Assembly: GCF_018141405.1 (NCBI RefSeq)
Contig: NZ_CP058648.1
Location: 2,185,001 to 2,249,000 of the forward strand
Reading direction: 5' to 3'
Length of the DNA: 64,000 nucleotides
Origin: Serpentinicella alkaliphila
GTDB lineage: Bacteria; Bacillota; Clostridia; Peptostreptococcales; Natronincolaceae
The notes beneath the pieces were generated by a model. The model saw nothing but the letters and a program-made list of their open reading frames with translations. It made no database searches and was not told where the DNA came from. The position numbers and the translations under genes are program-made. Below, piece by piece: positions 7,140-18,584 of the stretch. Each line of letters begins with the position of its first letter. Position 1 is the stretch's first letter.

Positions 7140-8240
7140 ATGTTTAGAGATGAGGCTTCGAGACATATGGAGGAGCTTTTTAGAAATAAAGTAAAGAAGG
7201 ACAATAAAATATATAATGCATATATGCTAATACATTCTGAGAAGTATAATATTCATCTCAATATGGCAGAAGGCGTGACGGAACAAATACAATCTAATCC
7301 TATGCAACAATTTCATATTGCAAGTATTGGTAAACTGTTTGTATCAGTATTAACTGGAATTCTTTTTGAACAGGAAAAAATATCATATGAGGATCGAATA
7401 AAAGATTACTTTAATAACGATTTATTAAATGATTTACATGTATATAAAGGGAAAGATTATACTGGCGAAATTAAAATAAAACATATTCTAAACCATACAT
7501 CTGGACTTCCAGATTATTTTGAAGATAAGCCCAAATATGGAAAGTCTATGTTAGAAATGATATTTGAGGAACCCTATAGGAGATGGAAGCCTGAGGATAT
7601 AATTATATGGTCTAAAGCTAACCTTAAATCTCATTTTCCACCTGGTAGGGGTTTTCACTATAGTGATACTGGTTATCACATTCTAGGATTGATAATTGAG
7701 AGGATTTTAGGATGTCCATTAAATAAGGCTTTGGAAGAATATATATTTAGACCTTTACACATGGACTTTACATATTTAGATACATATGAACAATCCACAA
7801 AAAATACTGGTTTTCCAGTAGCAGATGTATATTTTAATGATATCAATGTGAAGGGGTTTAACATTTTAAAAGATGATTATGCTGGTGGAGGCGTAATATC
7901 TACAACAGAGGACATGCTTAAATTTATGGAGGCCATATCAAAACATGTAATTATAAAAAAAGAAACATTTGAAAGAATGAAGGATTGGGCAGGATTTTTC
8001 AATTTTTTCTTTTTAGGTATAGATTATGGTTATGGATTAATGCAATTTAAAGAAATACCAATTCTGCAACCAAAGAAATATAATATATGGGGTAATGCTG
8101 GTTCTATTGGATCATTTATGTTTTATCAACCGGAGTTGGATACCTACTTTATAGGGAGTTTAAACCAATTTAGGTATCATTCGAAAGGTATAAGAACTAT
8201 TTTTAAAATGATAGACATTTTAACAAAATTAGAAAAATGA
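7140..8240 (+). CDS. Beta-lactamase-family serine hydrolase
   Basis: A 366-residue class C beta-lactamase/esterase-fold protein. The SxxK motif is SIGK (Ser62, Lys65), and the second motif is YSD (174-176) in place of the usual YxN; KHILNHTSGLPDYF and GYHILGLIIERIL are typical of the family. No signal peptide is seen, so it is probably a cytoplasmic esterase or peptidase rather than a drug-resistance enzyme. Translation begins immediately after the TetR gene stop, indicating an operon. Substrate cannot be told from the sequence. Confidence 0.85.
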   Translation: MFRDEASRHMEELFRNKVKKDNKIYNAYMLIHSEKYNIHLNMAEGVTEQIQSNPMQQFHIASIGKLFVSVLTGILFEQEKISYEDRIKDYFNNDLLNDLHVYKGKDYTGEIKIKHILNHTSGLPDYFEDKPKYGKSMLEMIFEEPYRRWKPEDIIIWSKANLKSHFPPGRGFHYSDTGYHILGLIIERILGCPLNKALEEYIFRPLHMDFTYLDTYEQSTKNTGFPVADVYFNDINVKGFNILKDDYAGGGVISTTEDMLKFMEAISKHVIIKKETFERMKDWAGFFNFFFLGIDYGYGLMQFKEIPILQPKKYNIWGNAGSIGSFMFYQPELDTYFIGSLNQFRYHSKGIRTIFKMIDILTKLEK

Positions 8241-9533: not shown

Positions 9534-10411
9534 TTGAAAAGAGTGGTAATAGTTATGCTCATATGTACCACAGTTTTGTTAGTTGGATGTAATGATCATC
9601 TTGAGGTAATAGATACAAGTAAATACAAAGAAGTAGAGCTAGTTGGTGTTAATAATACAGAAGATATTTCTTTTTTACTAGATGAAGACCAATATTTTGA
9701 TAAGCTTATTTATACCTATTATCCAATGCCAAATTTATCAAAATATGAATTTTATAAAGTCGAAGATGTTCTATATGCAGACTATTATTTTTTAGAAAAC
9801 TCTAAAAGAGATGAAATACAAAATAGTAGTAACATGTTTATGGATGTTTTTTTAATCAATAAATTAAGACCCTTAGGATTAACACCGCCTAAAGAACTAG
9901 TAGAAATGAATTTACTTTTGAGTCAGGTTAATTACAGGGTATTTATAGGGGATAGAAATATTATATTAAATAATATTGATATTGCTGATGGTTCAATAGA
10001 AAGCAATTATTTCGAGGACAGTAGAGTAAAGCTACCATCTAGAGATATAATGACTGAAGCGATGCAGGAATTTAAGAAAAAGATAGAAAGAAAATTTTGG
10101 TGGAGTATCAAAGATGTTTCTTTCCAAAAAGTTTTAATGGGCATGTGTTGTTTGTGAAGTTTCAAAGTAGAACAAAGATGAAAGAAGATGCTATCAATTA
10201 TATAAAAGAAGAAATAGAACTTAATTTAGCTAATGCGCTTGCAAAGTCTTCAGAAGAAATCTATGAATCAAATCAAGATTATTTGGGAATTCTTGTAGAA
10301 TTTTACAGAGGAGATAACAATTATTATCAAGAAACTTACTGCAATGGAAAAGAAAAGTACTGGTTTAACGAATATTGGGGAAATCATGATTTCTTTACAC
10401 ATAGTCATTAG
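9534..10411 (+). pseudogene. Lipoprotein gene with a frameshift
   Basis: A TTG start after AAGGGGTGA gives a lipoprotein signal with lipobox LVGC (Cys19). The first frame stops at 10157 after 207 codons. An overlapping frame carries on to 10411 with coherent protein (FNGHVLFVKF, AINYIKEEIELNLANALAK). The two join if one base is added in the A5 run at 10126-10130, giving a single protein of about 290 residues. It is therefore either a pseudogene or a sequencing error in the A-run. I recognise no family; the mature part is a secreted, lipid-anchored protein of unknown role. Confidence 0.65.
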
Positions 10412-10794
10412 TCATATTATCTATTTAAGACGTGATTAAATAATAGAAATAAGGTTAGCTAGTTATAGCGGTTATGTTACTTCCTTCTTCAACAATGGAC
10501 TTTGGGGAGAAAGTACTTATAGTCCTGAGTAAGGGAGGATTATTAGCTAATCAGAGTAAATTTGTATGTATTGCTGATTAAAAATTGTTTAAAAATTATT
10601 TAACATTTTAAGGTTTATAGTTTAAATGTAGGAGATAGAATGTACAATAGGTAATGAATTAGGATAACGGGCTAACTGTAAATAGTATTAGTTATGTGTA
10701 AAAGAACTCAAACTATCTATAGGGATATGCCAAAAGTCAGTAGATATCCTTATATTATAACTAATAATTTAATTGCTGAATTGAGGTGTAGAAT
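10412..10794. other. 383-base leader region of the two-component operon
   Basis: It contains the phased repeat operator (10577-10631) and a -10 candidate, TACAAT at 10643-10648. The part from 10412 to about 10570 shows no gene I can support; there is no clear terminator for the preceding lipoprotein gene. The predicted untranslated leader is about 140 bases. Confidence 0.5.
10577..10631. promoter_or_regulatory. 11-bp phased TTTAA repeats, PhoP/OmpR-type operator (copy 1)
   Basis: Repeats begin at 10577 (ATTAAAAATTG), 10588 (TTTAAAAATTA), 10599 (TTTAACATTTT) and 10621 (TTTAAATGTAG), with a weaker unit at 10610, exactly 11 bases apart. The -10 element TACAAT at 10643 lies 44 bases after the start of the TTTAACATTTT unit. 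Copy 2 upstream of 13117 has the same layout. The 11-bp period is known for PhoP/OmpR-family sites; the identity of the binding protein is inferred. Confidence 0.6.
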
Positions 10795-12135
10795 TTGACA
10801 ATAAAACAACGTCTGTTCTTGTCCCATGTCATAATGACTATTATATTACTGAGTGCAATTATTATAGTGGACAATTGGAGAGGAGAAGCTGATCTTGAGA
10901 AAATAACCGAATATATTAAGCAATCGGAAATCACTTCAGAAGATAAGTATCTTTCCTTAGCTATTTATGAAGGAGATAAGGAAGTATACACTTTTGGCGA
11001 CTTCTCGGAAAATACAATGATTATAGCAGCTAATGAATCGGGCAAAAAGTTTTTTACTATGGATAACTTTGCAATATATTCCGTAGAATTCGGAAACTAT
11101 AGAGTTTATCTAATGAACCGCGCCCATAAATATGGAGAAAACGATAAGATCAAAGGTTCTGGTAATTCGTTTGCTTTTGACATTGTAATAATCATCGGAA
11201 TTGTTATTCTTGCAAATCAATTATTGAACAGAATGGTGTTTAAGAGCATTATTATTCCTCTGGATATGTTAGTGGATGGAGTGCACGAGATTCGGGATGG
11301 CAATCTGGGATGCCGCATCAGGTATAATGGAAAGGATGAATTTGCAGGAATCTGCATGGACTTTAATAACATGGCACAGAAAATACAAGAACTGATGGAG
11401 GCTAAACGGAAAGATGATGAAAATCGAAGGGAGTTGATTGCAGGAATATCCCATGATTTACGTACCCCTTTAACGTCGATCAAAGCATATGTAGAAGGGT
11501 TGCAAAAGGGAGTGGCTACCACATCACATTTACAAAAAGAATACCTAGAAACCATCGCGAATAAAGCTGATGATTTGGAGCATATAGTTAAGCAGCTATT
11601 TTTGTTTTCTAAATTGGATATTGGGGACTTTCCTTTAGTATTAAAAAATATAGACATTGGCAAGGAATTAAAACAGTATAAGAAAAGTGTTATGGTTGAA
11701 TATGAAAAAAGAGGATTACAGGTACATCTTCAAGATGCTCAGGAGGGTATAACTGTAAGAGTCGATCCCATCCAACTGCGTAACGTATTTACTAATATAC
11801 TAGAAAATACTCTGAAGTATGGTCTTCAGGAACATGGCTGTATCAAAATCAATTGCATGGCCGCTGTAGAGGACGTAAGTATAATATTTGAGGACAATGG
11901 GCCTGGTGTACAGGATGATAAGCTTGACAAGCTATTTAACGCGTTTTACCGGACTAACAGAGCTAGGAGTAATCCTGGTCAGGGTAGTGGCTTAGGCCTT
12001 GCTATCTCACGCAAGATAATAGAGAGGTTCAGTGGCTCTATTTATGCTGAGAATGTGTATGGTGGTGGACTGAAAATCGTAATTGTACTCCCAATAGTAG
12101 CAGGAGGTTCTAATGAAGAAAATATTGATTATTGA
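10795..12135 (+). CDS. Membrane sensor histidine kinase
   Basis: A 446-residue sensor kinase: TM helix at about 7-25, an extracytoplasmic domain of about 100 residues, TM2 at about 127-148, HAMP linker (150-205), the dimerisation/phosphoacceptor helix GISHDLRTPLTSIKAYVEGL with His220, and an ATPase domain with ENTLKYG (N-box), DNGPGV and GQGSGLGLAIS (G-boxes). The TTG start follows TGAGGTG (10782-10788). It overlaps the response regulator by 23 bases. There is no PAS domain, unlike typical PhoR. Its codon use looks slightly richer in G+C than the neighbours, which may mean transfer. Stimulus unknown; phosphate is one hypothesis from the operator type. Confidence 0.92.
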   Translation: MTIKQRLFLSHVIMTIILLSAIIIVDNWRGEADLEKITEYIKQSEITSEDKYLSLAIYEGDKEVYTFGDFSENTMIIAANESGKKFFTMDNFAIYSVEFGNYRVYLMNRAHKYGENDKIKGSGNSFAFDIVIIIGIVILANQLLNRMVFKSIIIPLDMLVDGVHEIRDGNLGCRIRYNGKDEFAGICMDFNNMAQKIQELMEAKRKDDENRRELIAGISHDLRTPLTSIKAYVEGLQKGVATTSHLQKEYLETIANKADDLEHIVKQLFLFSKLDIGDFPLVLKNIDIGKELKQYKKSVMVEYEKRGLQVHLQDAQEGITVRVDPIQLRNVFTNILENTLKYGLQEHGCIKINCMAAVEDVSIIFEDNGPGVQDDKLDKLFNAFYRTNRARSNPGQGSGLGLAISRKIIERFSGSIYAENVYGGGLKIVIVLPIVAGGSNEENIDY

Positions 12136-12808
12136 AGATGATTATGCTATCGCAAAGATTGAACGTGATTTCCTTATGATTAATGGTTATGAAGCAATTA
12201 TTATTGAGGATGGAGAGCGTGGGTTACAAGAGGCTCTTAAAGGTAAATATGATCTGATAATACTGGATTTGATGCTCCCGGGAAAAGATGGTTTAGAAAT
12301 TTGCAAGCAAATTCGCAATGTACTAGATATTCCGATTTTGATGGTTACTGCTAAAATTGAAAATGTGGACAAGATTATGGGGCTAGGTCTAGGTGCTGAC
12401 GATTATATCGCCAAGCCCTTTTCCCCAACGGAACTGGTGGCACGAGTTAAGGCAAATCTCGCACAGTATGAACGGATAAGTACAAAGGTTACTCAATTAC
12501 CAAAAACTGAAGAAATAGTATATGGTAATTTATATATGAATACGCAGGCAAGACGAGTTTATTTAAATGGAAAGGAAATTGACTTCAAGAATAAAGAATA
12601 CGAATTGTTGTATTTTCTTATGTCTAATCCCGAAAATGTATTCAGTCGGGAGGTATTATATGAACGAATATGGGGAATGGATGCTTTAGGTGATAGTCGA
12701 ACTGTCTCGGTACATATTAACCGGTTGAGAGAAAAAATAGAACTTGATCCAACTAATCCTGAACGTATACAAACCGTATGGGGGGCGGGATATCGATTTA
12801 AACCCTAA
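12113..12808 (+). CDS. OmpR/PhoP-family response regulator
   Basis: A 231-residue regulator with a receiver domain (acidic pocket EDD at 8-10, phosphoacceptor Asp52 in LIILDLMLPG, Lys in YIAKPFSP) and an OmpR-type winged helix from about 130 (RVYLNGKEIDFKNKEYELL, DSRTVSVHINRLREKIE). AGGAGG at 12101-12106 lies inside the kinase gene, whose end it overlaps. As an OmpR-type dimer it should bind direct repeats with an 11-bp period; such repeats lie before its own operon and before the phospholipase gene downstream, so autoregulation and control of those genes are likely but inferred. Confidence 0.93.
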   Translation: MKKILIIEDDYAIAKIERDFLMINGYEAIIIEDGERGLQEALKGKYDLIILDLMLPGKDGLEICKQIRNVLDIPILMVTAKIENVDKIMGLGLGADDYIAKPFSPTELVARVKANLAQYERISTKVTQLPKTEEIVYGNLYMNTQARRVYLNGKEIDFKNKEYELLYFLMSNPENVFSREVLYERIWGMDALGDSRTVSVHINRLREKIELDPTNPERIQTVWGAGYRFKP

Positions 12809-12836
12809 GGATAGTAAACTTAATTAAATAATAGAG

Positions 12837-12872
12837 AAAACCTCTGCTTTGATTTTAAAGTAGAGGTTTTTC
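12837..12872 (+). terminator. Terminator of the two-component operon
   Basis: A 14-bp stem (AAAACCTCTGCTTT with AAAGTAGAGGTTTT, one G-T pair) with a six-base loop runs into TTTTTT. It separates the two-component genes from the phospholipase operon, so the latter needs its own promoter. Confidence 0.9.
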
Positions 12873-12910
12873 TATGTCCTTTTGTAGTGAAGTACTCTAA
12901 CTTAAGTTTC

Positions 12911-12987
12911 ATGTAACGGTGTTTAACAATTGTTGTAATTTTGTTTAACAATTATTTAACATTTTAAAGATGGCAGTTTAAGAATAT
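12911..12987. promoter_or_regulatory. 11-bp phased TTTAACAATT repeats, PhoP/OmpR-type operator (copy 2)
   Basis: Units start at 12911 (ATGTAACGGTG), 12922 (TTTAACAATTG), 12933 (TTGTAATTTTG), 12944 (TTTAACAATTA), 12955 (TTTAACATTTT) and 12977 (TTTAAGAATAT), all in 11-bp register. A -10 candidate TATAGA is at 13000, 45 bases after the 12955 unit, matching the geometry of copy 1. The hexamer TTAACA repeated with 5-base spacing is the B. subtilis PhoP box pattern. It precedes the phospholipase gene by about 130 bases. Confidence 0.68.
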
Positions 12988-13116
12988 TTTGTAGATTAAT
13001 ATAGACGTAGTGATATCCGTACATGTATTGCACATAAGAGAATCATACCTTAATCGTAGTACTTTAATTTTTTCAATATTTCTGATTTCTAATAAACTAA
13101 TATTTAGGAGGTAGCT

Positions 13117-13701
13117 GTGTTAACATTAAACCATTTAGATCTTGCGAAATTTATTCTTCGGATTTCTACACATTCTAACTTAAGGCGGTATAGAGTACTT
13201 TTTACTTTAGGATGTATCTGGCCGGATATTAATCTATTAACGTATATTGTCGGCCATAATTCTAACAAACGTCTTACTGACGTAGAAAAGCACATGGAAA
13301 AGTTAATGAAGTTAAAGTACCTTTCTCCAGTTAATGCATTCCGTTTTGGTGTGGCCTTACATTATGTAGCTGATTGCTTCACGATGGCACATAACCCGTT
13401 AATTTTTAAAGGTAATATTATGGAGCATCTTGATTACGAAAAAAAACTGTTTTCTCAAATACGGAAACGATTTAATATGTCTGTTGAAAACTTATCTCAA
13501 TTAAAACAAGAGGAAGAGTTTGTATCAATAACACAGATGCATAAAAATTATTTAAAAAATGATATGTCATGTAGCAATGATGCTAATTATATAATTTATG
13601 CCTGTATCCGAATCACAGATATTTTAAACTCCCAGTGGGCTAGAAAAAAACTGTCGTACTGTTCAAATGCCTTTAGAAGAGGCTTGTACTTGCAAAACTG
13701 A
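13117..13701 (+). CDS. Zinc-dependent phospholipase C-like protein
   Basis: A 194-residue protein related to the zinc-dependent phospholipase C / alpha-toxin catalytic fold. His82, Asp86 and His92 (LHYVADCFTMAHN) have the same 4- and 6-residue spacing as three zinc ligands of B. cereus PC-PLC, and His104 with Glu108 match the later HxxxE pair; WPD at 35-37 may supply another ligand. Unlike secreted phospholipases it has no signal peptide, so it should act at the inner face of the membrane. The GTG start follows AGGAGGT (13106-13112). The predicted reaction is phospholipid to diacylglycerol plus phosphoalcohol. It precedes a diacylglycerol glycosyltransferase-like gene. Substrate is inferred from the family. 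Confidence 0.78.
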   Translation: MLTLNHLDLAKFILRISTHSNLRRYRVLFTLGCIWPDINLLTYIVGHNSNKRLTDVEKHMEKLMKLKYLSPVNAFRFGVALHYVADCFTMAHNPLIFKGNIMEHLDYEKKLFSQIRKRFNMSVENLSQLKQEEEFVSITQMHKNYLKNDMSCSNDANYIIYACIRITDILNSQWARKKLSYCSNAFRRGLYLQN

Positions 13702-13872: not shown

Positions 13873-15024
13873 ATGGGTAAGAGAATTGTGATTTTTACAG
13901 CATCTATTGGTAGCGGTCACGATCAAGCAGCAGAAAACATAAAAAGAGTATTATTAGCTCGTGGGCCAGGGGTTGAAGTAGAGGTATTAGATTTTATGAA
14001 TATATTACATCCTACTATAAGTCAGTTTATAGTATCTACTTATTTAAAAGTAATAGATATGTTTCCTAGTGTCTATCATTATATATATCATATTACAGAA
14101 AAAATAAGGTCCCAGGGCAAGGTTAATGATTTAATAACATATAGATATCTTAAAAAAATAACGAGATTATTGTCAACTCAGTATACAAATTTGATTGTAT
14201 TTACTAACCCATTTCCTTCAGTTATGCTTTCTTCCTTAAAGAAACGAGGTTTGTTAAATATACCAACTGCTACTATTATAACTGATTATGCGGCACATTC
14301 CGTTTGGTTAGATGACACTATAGATATGTACTTTGTAGGATGTGAGGAACTTAGACAGGATTTAATAAATAGGGGCGTAAGAAGCAACAGAATTATAGTG
14401 TCAGGTATACCTATTCATGAGAAATTTCATTTACCAGTTGATAAAGTTGCTGTAGCAAAGAAAATTGGGGTAAATACTAATCTACCGACAATTCTTATAA
14501 TGGGTGGTGGCCTTGGACTTGGCCCGATTAAAGAGGCATTAAATAGAGTAGATGAGATCAATAACCCAATACAAATACTTGTTGTAACCGGAAATAATGA
14601 GCAATTGAAATCTGAACTAGAGATTAGGCAATATAGTGATAAACATAGGGTTAAAATTTTTGGTTTCTGTAATAACATACATGAGCTTATGGAGGTTTCA
14701 CATTTGCTTATATCGAAATCTGGAGGGCTTACGATAACTGAAGCTATAAGTAAGGGACTTCCAATAATAGTAGCAGACCCCATTCCTGGACAAGAGGTTG
14801 TGAATGCACAGTATTTTTCTAGTCTCGGGGCAGCAAAACTTATCAAAAACCTAGATGAATTAAGGGATTGTATAGTTGAATTGTTATTTGTTAATCCAGA
14901 TAAACTAATGGATATGGTTAAGAACTCCTTTAATGCAGCAAAGCCAAATGCATCAGAAAATATTGTTAATAGGCTTTTGGTTTGTTTAAAAGAGCTTTAT
15001 GATAATGATGTGGCCTCTATTTAA
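13873..15024 (+). CDS. Diacylglycerol glycosyltransferase-like protein (MGDG synthase/UgtP type)
   Basis: A 383-residue GT-B enzyme. The N-terminal acceptor-side motif TASIGSGHDQAAENI (about 9-23) is that of plant MGDG synthase and Bacillus UgtP, and the C-terminal donor-binding region has ISKSGGLTITEAISKGLPII followed by DPIPGQEVVNA. The family transfers a sugar from a nucleotide sugar to diacylglycerol at the inner membrane face, making glycolipids or the lipoteichoic acid anchor; MurG is a more distant relative. It follows the phospholipase C-like gene by 171 bases with no terminator between, so it may use the DAG released by that enzyme. The ribosome-binding site is GAGGCGAGG. The stop lies in the terminator hairpin. 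Confidence 0.85.
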   Translation: MGKRIVIFTASIGSGHDQAAENIKRVLLARGPGVEVEVLDFMNILHPTISQFIVSTYLKVIDMFPSVYHYIYHITEKIRSQGKVNDLITYRYLKKITRLLSTQYTNLIVFTNPFPSVMLSSLKKRGLLNIPTATIITDYAAHSVWLDDTIDMYFVGCEELRQDLINRGVRSNRIIVSGIPIHEKFHLPVDKVAVAKKIGVNTNLPTILIMGGGLGLGPIKEALNRVDEINNPIQILVVTGNNEQLKSELEIRQYSDKHRVKIFGFCNNIHELMEVSHLLISKSGGLTITEAISKGLPIIVADPIPGQEVVNAQYFSSLGAAKLIKNLDELRDCIVELLFVNPDKLMDMVKNSFNAAKPNASENIVNRLLVCLKELYDNDVASI

Positions 15025-16873: not shown

Positions 16874-18584
16874 ATGAGATTATCACTTTCTAAATCTAAA
16901 AATGCTACTTCACTTTATGTGATAAAGGATATAATTGAAAAAAATAAGCGTACTACTAAAATTGTTGAAAAACTAGGTACATATGATGAGCTTCTTAACA
17001 AATTAAACGGGGAAGACCCTATTGAATGGGCTAAGAAATATATCGATGAACTTAATAAAAAAGAAAAAGAAGAAAATAGTACAATCATGGTTCAATACTC
17101 GCCTACAAAACTTATTGGTAAAGATAAGCAACAGTCTTTTAATGGAGGCTATCTATTTCTTCAAAAGATTTATCATGATCTAGGAATTCACAAAATCTGT
17201 AAAGAGATTTCCAATCGCCATAAATTCACTTTTAATCTTGACTCCATACTATCTAGACTTTTATATGGTAGGATTATCTTTCCTGGTTCTAAGCTTTCCA
17301 CCTATAACCTATCTACTAGATTTTTAGAAAAACCTGATTTTGATATTCAACATATTTATAGAGCACTTGAAGTTATTTCTAAGGAAACTGATTATATTCA
17401 ATCGGAGCTTTATAATAATAGTTATAAACTTTCTAAGCGTAATTCAGGAATTCTTTATTATGACTGTACGAATTACTTCTTTGAGATTGAGCAAGAGCAA
17501 GGCTTAAAACAGTATGGGTATTCAAAGGAACACAAACCTAATCCTATCGTACAAATGGGTCTTTTTATGGATGGGGATGGTATTCCACTAGCATTTAGCA
17601 TTACTAAAGGTAATACTAATGAACAGCTCACTTTAAAGCCTTTAGAACAGAAGATACTTAATGATTTCAAACTCTCAAAGTTTGTCGTATGCACAGATGC
17701 TGGACTAGCGTCAAATGACAATAGGAAATTTAATGATCAAGGTGGACGTGCTTTTATAACCACTCAGTCAATCAAAAACTTAAAAACATCTTAAAGAATG
17801 GGCACTTTCTAGCGAAGGATGGAGTTTAAGTGGTAGTAGTAAGGTTTTCGATATCTCTGATATTGAAGAAGACAATTTTGCAGATATTACTTTTTATAAA
17901 GAGCGATGGATTAAAGAAAATGGTTTGGAACAAAAGCTAATTGTAACTTATTCAATTAAATATAGAGACTATCAAAAAAATTCGAAATAAACAAATTGAG
18001 CGTCTTTGTTAAGGTAATAGAAAACAATCCATCAAAACTCAACAAGTGTAATCAGAACGATTACAAAAGATTTATAGGAAAAACAAGCGTTACATCAGAT
18101 GGTGAGGTGGCAGAAAAGGACCTCTATCGACTGGATTCAGATATTATATCAAAAGAAGAGGCATATGATGGTTTTTATCTTTGTATGCACAAATTTAGAA
18201 GATGAAGCTTCTGAAATTATTAAAGTTAATCATAAACGTTGGGAGATTGAAGAATGCTTTAGAATTATGAAAAGTGAATTTAAGGCAAGACCAGTGTACT
18301 TAACAAGAGATGATCGTATAGAAGCACACTTTACAACTTGTTTCTTGGCAATGGTGCTTTATAGATATCTTGAAAAACACTTAGATAACAAGTTCACCTG
18401 TACTGAAATCATACGAGAGTTAAGGGGTATGAATTTTTATGAAATCCTTGGCGATGGCTATATTCCAACTTACACACGCACAGATTTTACAGATGCACTT
18501 CATGAGGCTTTTGGCTTCAGAACGGATTATCAAATAATAAAAAACACACATATGAAAAATATTTTTAAAGATACGAAAAGATAA
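16874..18584 (+). pseudogene. IS1634-family transposase, frameshifted
   Basis: The first 306 codons hold the N-terminal part and the first catalytic region (YYDCTNYFFEIE, then GYSKEHKPNPIVQMGLF and FVVCTDAGLASND, two candidate Asp). The frame breaks near 17785 (shortened A-runs in the KKLKKHLK region), again near 17975 and 18010, and near 18185. The last frame keeps the third catalytic region NHKRWEIEECFRIMKSEF with the conserved Glu. About 560 residues would be encoded if intact. With at least four shifts it cannot make transposase as written; some shifts are in A-runs and might be sequencing errors, but not all. Confidence 0.88.

Follow-up and report, generated by a model that had tools for sequence, protein, structure and literature searches.

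A Conserved 11-bp Repeat Operator Is Predicted to Connect a Kinase-First Two-Component System with Membrane-Lipid Genes in Serpentinicella alkaliphila

Introduction

The HexRK two-component system of C. difficile lies beside a predicted MGDG-synthase-type gene and, through a small regulon, controls glycolipid synthesis (PMC10128005). The associated HexSDF operon encodes HexS, the deacetylase HexD and the flippase HexF, and includes no phospholipase; the paper describing HexRK mentions no direct repeat (PMC10128005). A second system, PlcP-Agt of Proteobacteria, remodels phospholipids to glycolipids and is regulated through Pho boxes (PMC4796936). The PHO box recognized by PhoP/PhoB is composed of 11-nt units arranged head-to-tail, in which seven bases are well conserved (PMC4415409).

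Here, we describe a locus of Serpentinicella alkaliphila that shares features with each of these systems and also differs from each. A kinase/regulator gene pair has, like HexRK-HexSDF, an MGDG-synthase-type neighbour (PF06925, 2e-31), but the response regulator gene comes first in HexRK whereas the kinase gene comes first here, and the two loci differ in partner genes as well as in gene order: the neighbours at this locus encode a phospholipase C and one glycosyltransferase. The adjoining phospholipase C and lipid glycosyltransferase genes under a two-component regulator, and the logic of converting phospholipid to diacylglycerol to glycolipid, recall PlcP-Agt. PlcP belongs to a protein family other than PF00882. 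The enzyme encoded here is a predicted PF00882 zinc phospholipase C, its regulator is not PhoB, and its operator is of the regulator's own clade type rather than a Pho box. The repeats resemble PHO boxes in their 11-nt head-to-tail units, but differ from them in the unit itself (GTTTAHM rather than TTAACA), in the separate clade to which the regulator belongs, and in that the pst genes of the same genome have an array of their own. Finally, WalRK/VanRS-type OmpR regulators share both the domain family and the use of direct-repeat operators, but the WalRK regulator of this genome (locus L169) is 44% identical to the one studied here and falls outside its clade.

We present evidence for the repeat arrays as predicted operators of the response regulator from the same locus, the module being a putative autoregulated switch for membrane-lipid remodelling outside the PnpRS/pst regulon. 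We place the probability of this reading at about three in four.

Results

The window, that is, the whole stretch of 64,000 nucleotides that was analysed (G000:C1:2185001-2249000), has a G+C content of 32% and comes from a single-contig genome of 3.26 Mb. The arrays were read directly in its letters 10300-13300. The features of the locus are as follows.

10577..10631, + strand: operator array A, 5' of the kinase/regulator operon; found by direct reading and as the best match in the window to a motif trained on foreign sequences
10636..10641, + strand: predicted -10 box TAGAAT of promoter A, at the 15-nt spacing kept in foreign sites
10795..12135, + strand: sensor histidine kinase of 446 aa with a TTG start; HAMP, HisKA and HATPase_c domains (Pfam)
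12113..12808, + strand: OmpR-family response regulator of 231 aa (Pfam), in a clade with 84 foreign regulators
12831..12875, + strand: hairpin and T-run, a probable terminator separating the operon from promoter B (RNA fold -22.8 kcal/mol, z -6.7)
12911..12987, + strand: operator array B, 5' of the lipid genes, with clear TTTAA units at four of its seven 11-bp positions; found by direct reading and as the second-best motif match
12992..12997, + strand: predicted -10 box TAGATT of promoter B, with the 15-nt spacing that foreign sites and promoter A also show
13117..13701, + strand: predicted zinc-dependent phospholipase C of 194 aa (PF00882, Pfam 6e-14)
13873..15024, + strand: predicted diacylglycerol glycosyltransferase of 383 aa; MGDG_synth (PF06925, 2e-31) and GT28 C-terminal domains (Pfam)

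The kinase and regulator genes overlap by 23 bases, and the regulator possesses the receiver and winged-helix domains of an OmpR-family two-component protein (Pfam). An alignment of the phospholipase with its family, six members in all, contains 16 invariant columns, including five His, at least two Asp and one Glu; H6, D37, H47, H82, D86, H92, H104 and E108 are among the invariant residues. The protein is 21-25% identical to Clostridium phospholipases C. As a single-protein query against genome contigs it retrieved no relatives, and its matches in 60 relatives are weak and include hits to another paralog. An AlphaFold2 model built from 4 sequences is of low confidence (pLDDT 42). The best NCBIfam match of the glycosyltransferase is diglucosyl-DAG synthase, at 267 bits under a cut-off of 500. 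A gap of 171 bp lies between the phospholipase C and glycosyltransferase genes, which leaves their co-transcription a presumption. Upstream of array A, at 9534-10411, are two overlapping frames (a 207-aa lipoprotein-like one and a 104-aa one) that may be one frameshifted gene.

Direct reading bore out the 11-base register that the initial annotation had described at both places, and every unit of the two arrays lies in exact 11-bp register. Array A (ATTAAAAATTG TTTAAAAATTA TTTAACATTTT AAGGTTTATAG TTTAAATG) has units at 10577 (ATTAAA), 10588 (TTTAAA), 10599 (TTTAAC), 10610 (degenerate) and 10621 (TTTAAA). Array B (TTTAACAATTG TTGTAATTTTG TTTAACAATTA TTTAACATTTT AAAGATGGCAG TTTAAGAATAT) has units at 12911 (ATGTAA), 12922 (TTTAAC), 12933 (TTGTAA), 12944 (TTTAAC), 12955 (TTTAAC), 12966 (degenerate) and 12977 (TTTAAG). 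Common to both is the order TTTAA, TTTAA, degenerate unit, TTTAA. In relatives, the distance from the start of the last TTTA to the start of the -10 box is conserved at 15 nt, which places the -10 boxes at TAGAAT (10636) and TAGATT (12992); each box lies 37 nt from the TTTAACATTTT unit of its array. Two other candidates, TACAAT (10643) and TATAGA (13000), had been proposed at 44 and 45 bases from TTTAACATTTT; these distances are arithmetically correct, but as -10 boxes both hexamers are probably wrong, since they disagree with the conserved spacing. A simple terminator scan missed the hairpin at 12831..12875; lying with its run of Ts between the regulator gene and array B, this strong hairpin points to B as a promoter in its own right.

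A six-sequence alignment of the regulator was scanned over 85,000 species genomes and yielded 80 foreign loci, with identities of up to 73%. The kinase gene is directly 5' of the regulator gene in 79 of the 80; in the exception (L225), the contig starts ~200 bases before the regulator gene. Within the same order, genomes encode regulators that are 56-61% identical and likewise preceded by the kinase gene, and in several cases a GTTTAAC-type array precedes the kinase gene or follows the regulator gene. A maximum-likelihood tree unites the window regulator with 84 others in a single group (support 100/99), and the other OmpR regulators of the S. alkaliphila genome, PnpR and WalR included, fall outside it. 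The nearest relative in the tree is from Halobacillus (L190), which has a site closely resembling array A before its kinase gene. The likely PnpR is, like WalR, 44% identical to the window regulator, which differs in its wing (TVWGAGYRF); we take this TVWGxGY wing to be VanR-like. The regulator scores below every NCBIfam equivalog cut-off, that of PhoB included. By these sequence comparisons, its clade is an unnamed one in which the kinase gene comes first and to which neither PnpR nor WalR belongs. We found no paper in the literature on a kinase-first clade with GTTTAHM repeats, and we consider B. subtilis YvrGHb, also kinase-first, a possible member.

Expectation-maximisation was used to derive a 56-nt profile whose parameters came from 155 foreign flanks of the 80 relatives, the window being excluded; its starting layout was set by hand after the window arrays had been seen. 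A local-mode sequence model ranked A first but split B, and the full-length profile was therefore used. The profile converged, with ~55 sites, on a row of four GTTTA units whose third member is weak (consensus GTTTAHM every 11 bp), followed by TATAAT 15 nt after the start of the last TTTA. The weak third unit agrees with the degenerate unit that the initial annotation had noted in both arrays, and many units of the clade read GTTTATC or GTTTACC. Upon 5-fold cross-validation by locus, 51 of 154 flanks carried a site above the threshold of 12 bits (15/77 before the kinase gene, 36/77 after the regulator gene); as controls, the reverse strand gave 2 sites and shuffled sequences 0. Roughly two in three foreign flanks have no site. 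Applied to both strands of the window, the foreign-trained profile ranked A (22.8, at 10587) and B (20.9, at 12943) at the top, with the third match at 11.4. An operator learned from other members of the clade is present in the window both before the kinase gene and before the gene that follows the regulator gene. The claim that a single operator type stands before both gene sets is upheld by this ranking and by the common layout of A and B; on these sequence grounds, the predicted operator is genuine and conserved, as is its occurrence at both places.

The full layout was also searched for genome-wide, as had been proposed together with the claim of a single operator type. The two-unit pattern TTTAA-N6-TTTAACA (up to 1 mismatch) was not enriched in the S. 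alkaliphila genome (98+106 matches versus 90+76 for the backwards control), so that a pair of units alone carries no weight. The full-layout pattern GTTTAA-N6-TTTAA-N16-GTTTAA-N10-TA, which was drawn from arrays A and B themselves, matched with zero mismatches only at A and B in 3.26 Mb; no genomic match had 1 mismatch, and background set in from 2 mismatches on. The highest profile scores in Markov-random sequence (2 x 3.25 Mb) were 25.3, 16.2 and 15.4. In ~528 kb of overlapping stretches of the S. alkaliphila genome, including the pst and other OmpR loci, nothing besides A and B scored above 13.8. Array A was also the top match of the sequence model within the genome, its other candidates there rescoring at 9.6 or less. 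One weak profile match (13.8, L077:4329-4384, genome position ~1132328) lies near the pst operon, just before a second MGDG-synthase-type glycosyltransferase gene; this score is near chance genome-wide.

Sites above threshold in the 80 foreign loci precede the kinase gene itself in 18 of the 81 targets scanned. Other targets are genes for PAP2 phosphatases (6), VTT/DedA proteins (5, one of them UptA-like), P-type ATPases (5), ABC transporters (5), GT2 enzymes (4), PopT-like undecaprenyl-phosphate translocases (2) and phospholipase C (2). Both phospholipase sites lie 75 bp before the gene, in C. uliginosum (L252, score 20.7) and Clostridium sp. LS (L255, 20.5), and in the latter the phospholipase C gene is followed by a glycosyltransferase gene. 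In C. zeae (L198) the operator precedes a cluster encoding GT4, phospholipase C, histidine kinase and response regulator; the GT4 protein best matches alpha-monoglucosyl-DAG synthase, at 311 bits below a cut-off of 400. A distal operator in Allocopromorpha (L323), scoring 40.8, likewise precedes a GT4 gene. A phospholipase together with a lipid glycosyltransferase, the latter from two families, thus recurs as a target of the operator. Distal motif matches in 12 clade genomes include some before genes for a GT4 that resembles monoglucosyl-DAG synthase, for a MATE transporter and for ABC transporters, and no pst or pho gene is among their annotated targets. The proposal that the regulator controls its own operon and, directly, the phospholipase/glycosyltransferase pair is well supported as a prediction by the foreign-trained motif and by the independent operators before Clostridium phospholipase C genes.

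The phosphate regulon of S. alkaliphila appears to have its own regulator and its own array. A likely PnpRS pair is encoded at 2034166, its kinase being a PnpS equivalog (414 bits; cut-off 400), and WalRK is encoded separately at 987453 (L169). Against TIGR02154 (PhoB-type; cut-off 296.2 bits), the window regulator scores 207 bits and is fourth-best in the genome; the likely PnpR, at 265 bits, is under the cut-off as well. The genome's pst operon has pstS at L077:8226, and the pstS promoter bears four CTTAACA-type units at 11 bp (CTTAACATAAA CTTAACAATTC ATTAACAGTGG CTTAACC), and the clade motif rejects this array, with scores of -2.9 or lower.

These data bear on three other readings of the arrays. 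OmpR-family regulators often cross-bind, and the window arrays share the TTAAC core and the 11-bp register with the pst array, so that both regulators might use the arrays, the local one binding them and PnpR cross-binding or feeding in under phosphate starvation. Control of one two-component system by another is known from B. subtilis PhoP-ResD (PMC4415409). We consider this arrangement unlikely, given that the units differ at the bases flanking the core and that the targets found in the clade include no phosphate genes.

Quite improbable is the view that the arrays are PHO boxes of PnpR, and the two-component operon and lipid genes phosphate-starvation genes as in PlcP-Agt of marine Proteobacteria. 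Array A is one of the few places in the genome within two mismatches of three TTAACA units at 11 bp, together with the pstS array, a chemoreceptor-gene array and one other; pstS itself carries four such units, and a phospholipase and glycosyltransferase with Pho boxes are known in Proteobacteria (PMC4796936). The window arrays, however, match the clade of their own regulator in GTTTAA signature and in spacing; the profile of this clade rejects the pst array, and the clade's annotated distal targets in 12 genomes include no pst or pho genes. The initial annotation had likened the repeats to the PhoP box; with a separate PnpRS, a separate pst array and the topology of the clade tree, this identity did not hold. 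That the arrays are simply AT-rich phased sequence (curved DNA or UP elements) with no specific regulator is hardly credible: the window is 32% G+C and two-unit matches are at background, but relatives share the array strand-specifically and with a fixed -10 spacing, shuffled sequences lack it, and the full layout occurs at only two sites in 3.26 Mb.

The PHO-box-like TTAACA arrays of the genome include two at the pst locus (L077:5578-5605 and 8108-8146; genome positions 1133577 and 1136107), one before pstS and the other before a chemoreceptor-like gene of 825 aa directly upstream of pst; the latter placement suggests phosphate-linked taxis. At 3198142-3198169 of the genome is an intergenic 11-bp TTAA array with 2 mismatches to three TTAACA units, on the strand opposite its flanking genes.

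Discussion

The arrangement of arrays A and B is consistent with a regulatory circuit in which one predicted operator serves both as feedback and as output. By analogy with PhoB and OmpR, stimulation of the kinase would lead the phosphorylated regulator to bind the 11-bp GTTTAHM repeats head-to-tail, covering the -35 position and the stretch upstream of it, and the bound regulator would recruit RNA polymerase and activate transcription. At promoter A, this binding would exert positive feedback on the two-component operon, and at promoter B, behind the probable terminator, it would switch on the phospholipase C and glycosyltransferase genes. The predicted phospholipase C would then release diacylglycerol from phospholipids, from which the predicted glycosyltransferase would make glycolipid. 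As for its signal, the kinase more probably responds to envelope state than to phosphate as such.

A broader model, which we offer tentatively and at somewhat less than even odds, is that an unnamed, kinase-first two-component family, widespread in Gram-positive bacteria, monitors the status of membrane lipids or undecaprenyl phosphate and uses a rigid four-unit GTTTAHM promoter to control its own genes as well as lineage-specific envelope-lipid genes; the S. alkaliphila locus would be a phosphate-independent version that switches phospholipid to glycolipid. A promoter code that can be read for so large a clade makes regulons predictable across Firmicutes and in some Synergistota and Spirochaetota. 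In S. alkaliphila, it ties a predicted phospholipase C and glycolipid synthase to one putative regulator outside the phosphate regulon. Moreover, with undecaprenyl-phosphate transporters and phosphatases, lipid glycosyltransferases and phospholipases recurring as targets, the envelope signal of the kinase becomes directly testable.

At nine loci from Bacillales and Clostridia (L223, L231, L233, L234, L238, L239, L246, L255 and L268), the operator stands near the two-component genes before a gene for a small secreted protein with the motif GYxxYKxAxK, a possible partner of the sensor. In the window, a transposase-like gene split into two parts (306 and 161 aa; 16874-18584) lies between the lipid genes and acetate kinase and is probably a decayed insertion sequence. 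An identical 18-mer, TTTAAATACTTTTTTACA, recurs in the genome, at positions including 998451, 1670326, 1779448, 1980256, 2412730 and 2514315, and probably sits inside a repeated mobile element.
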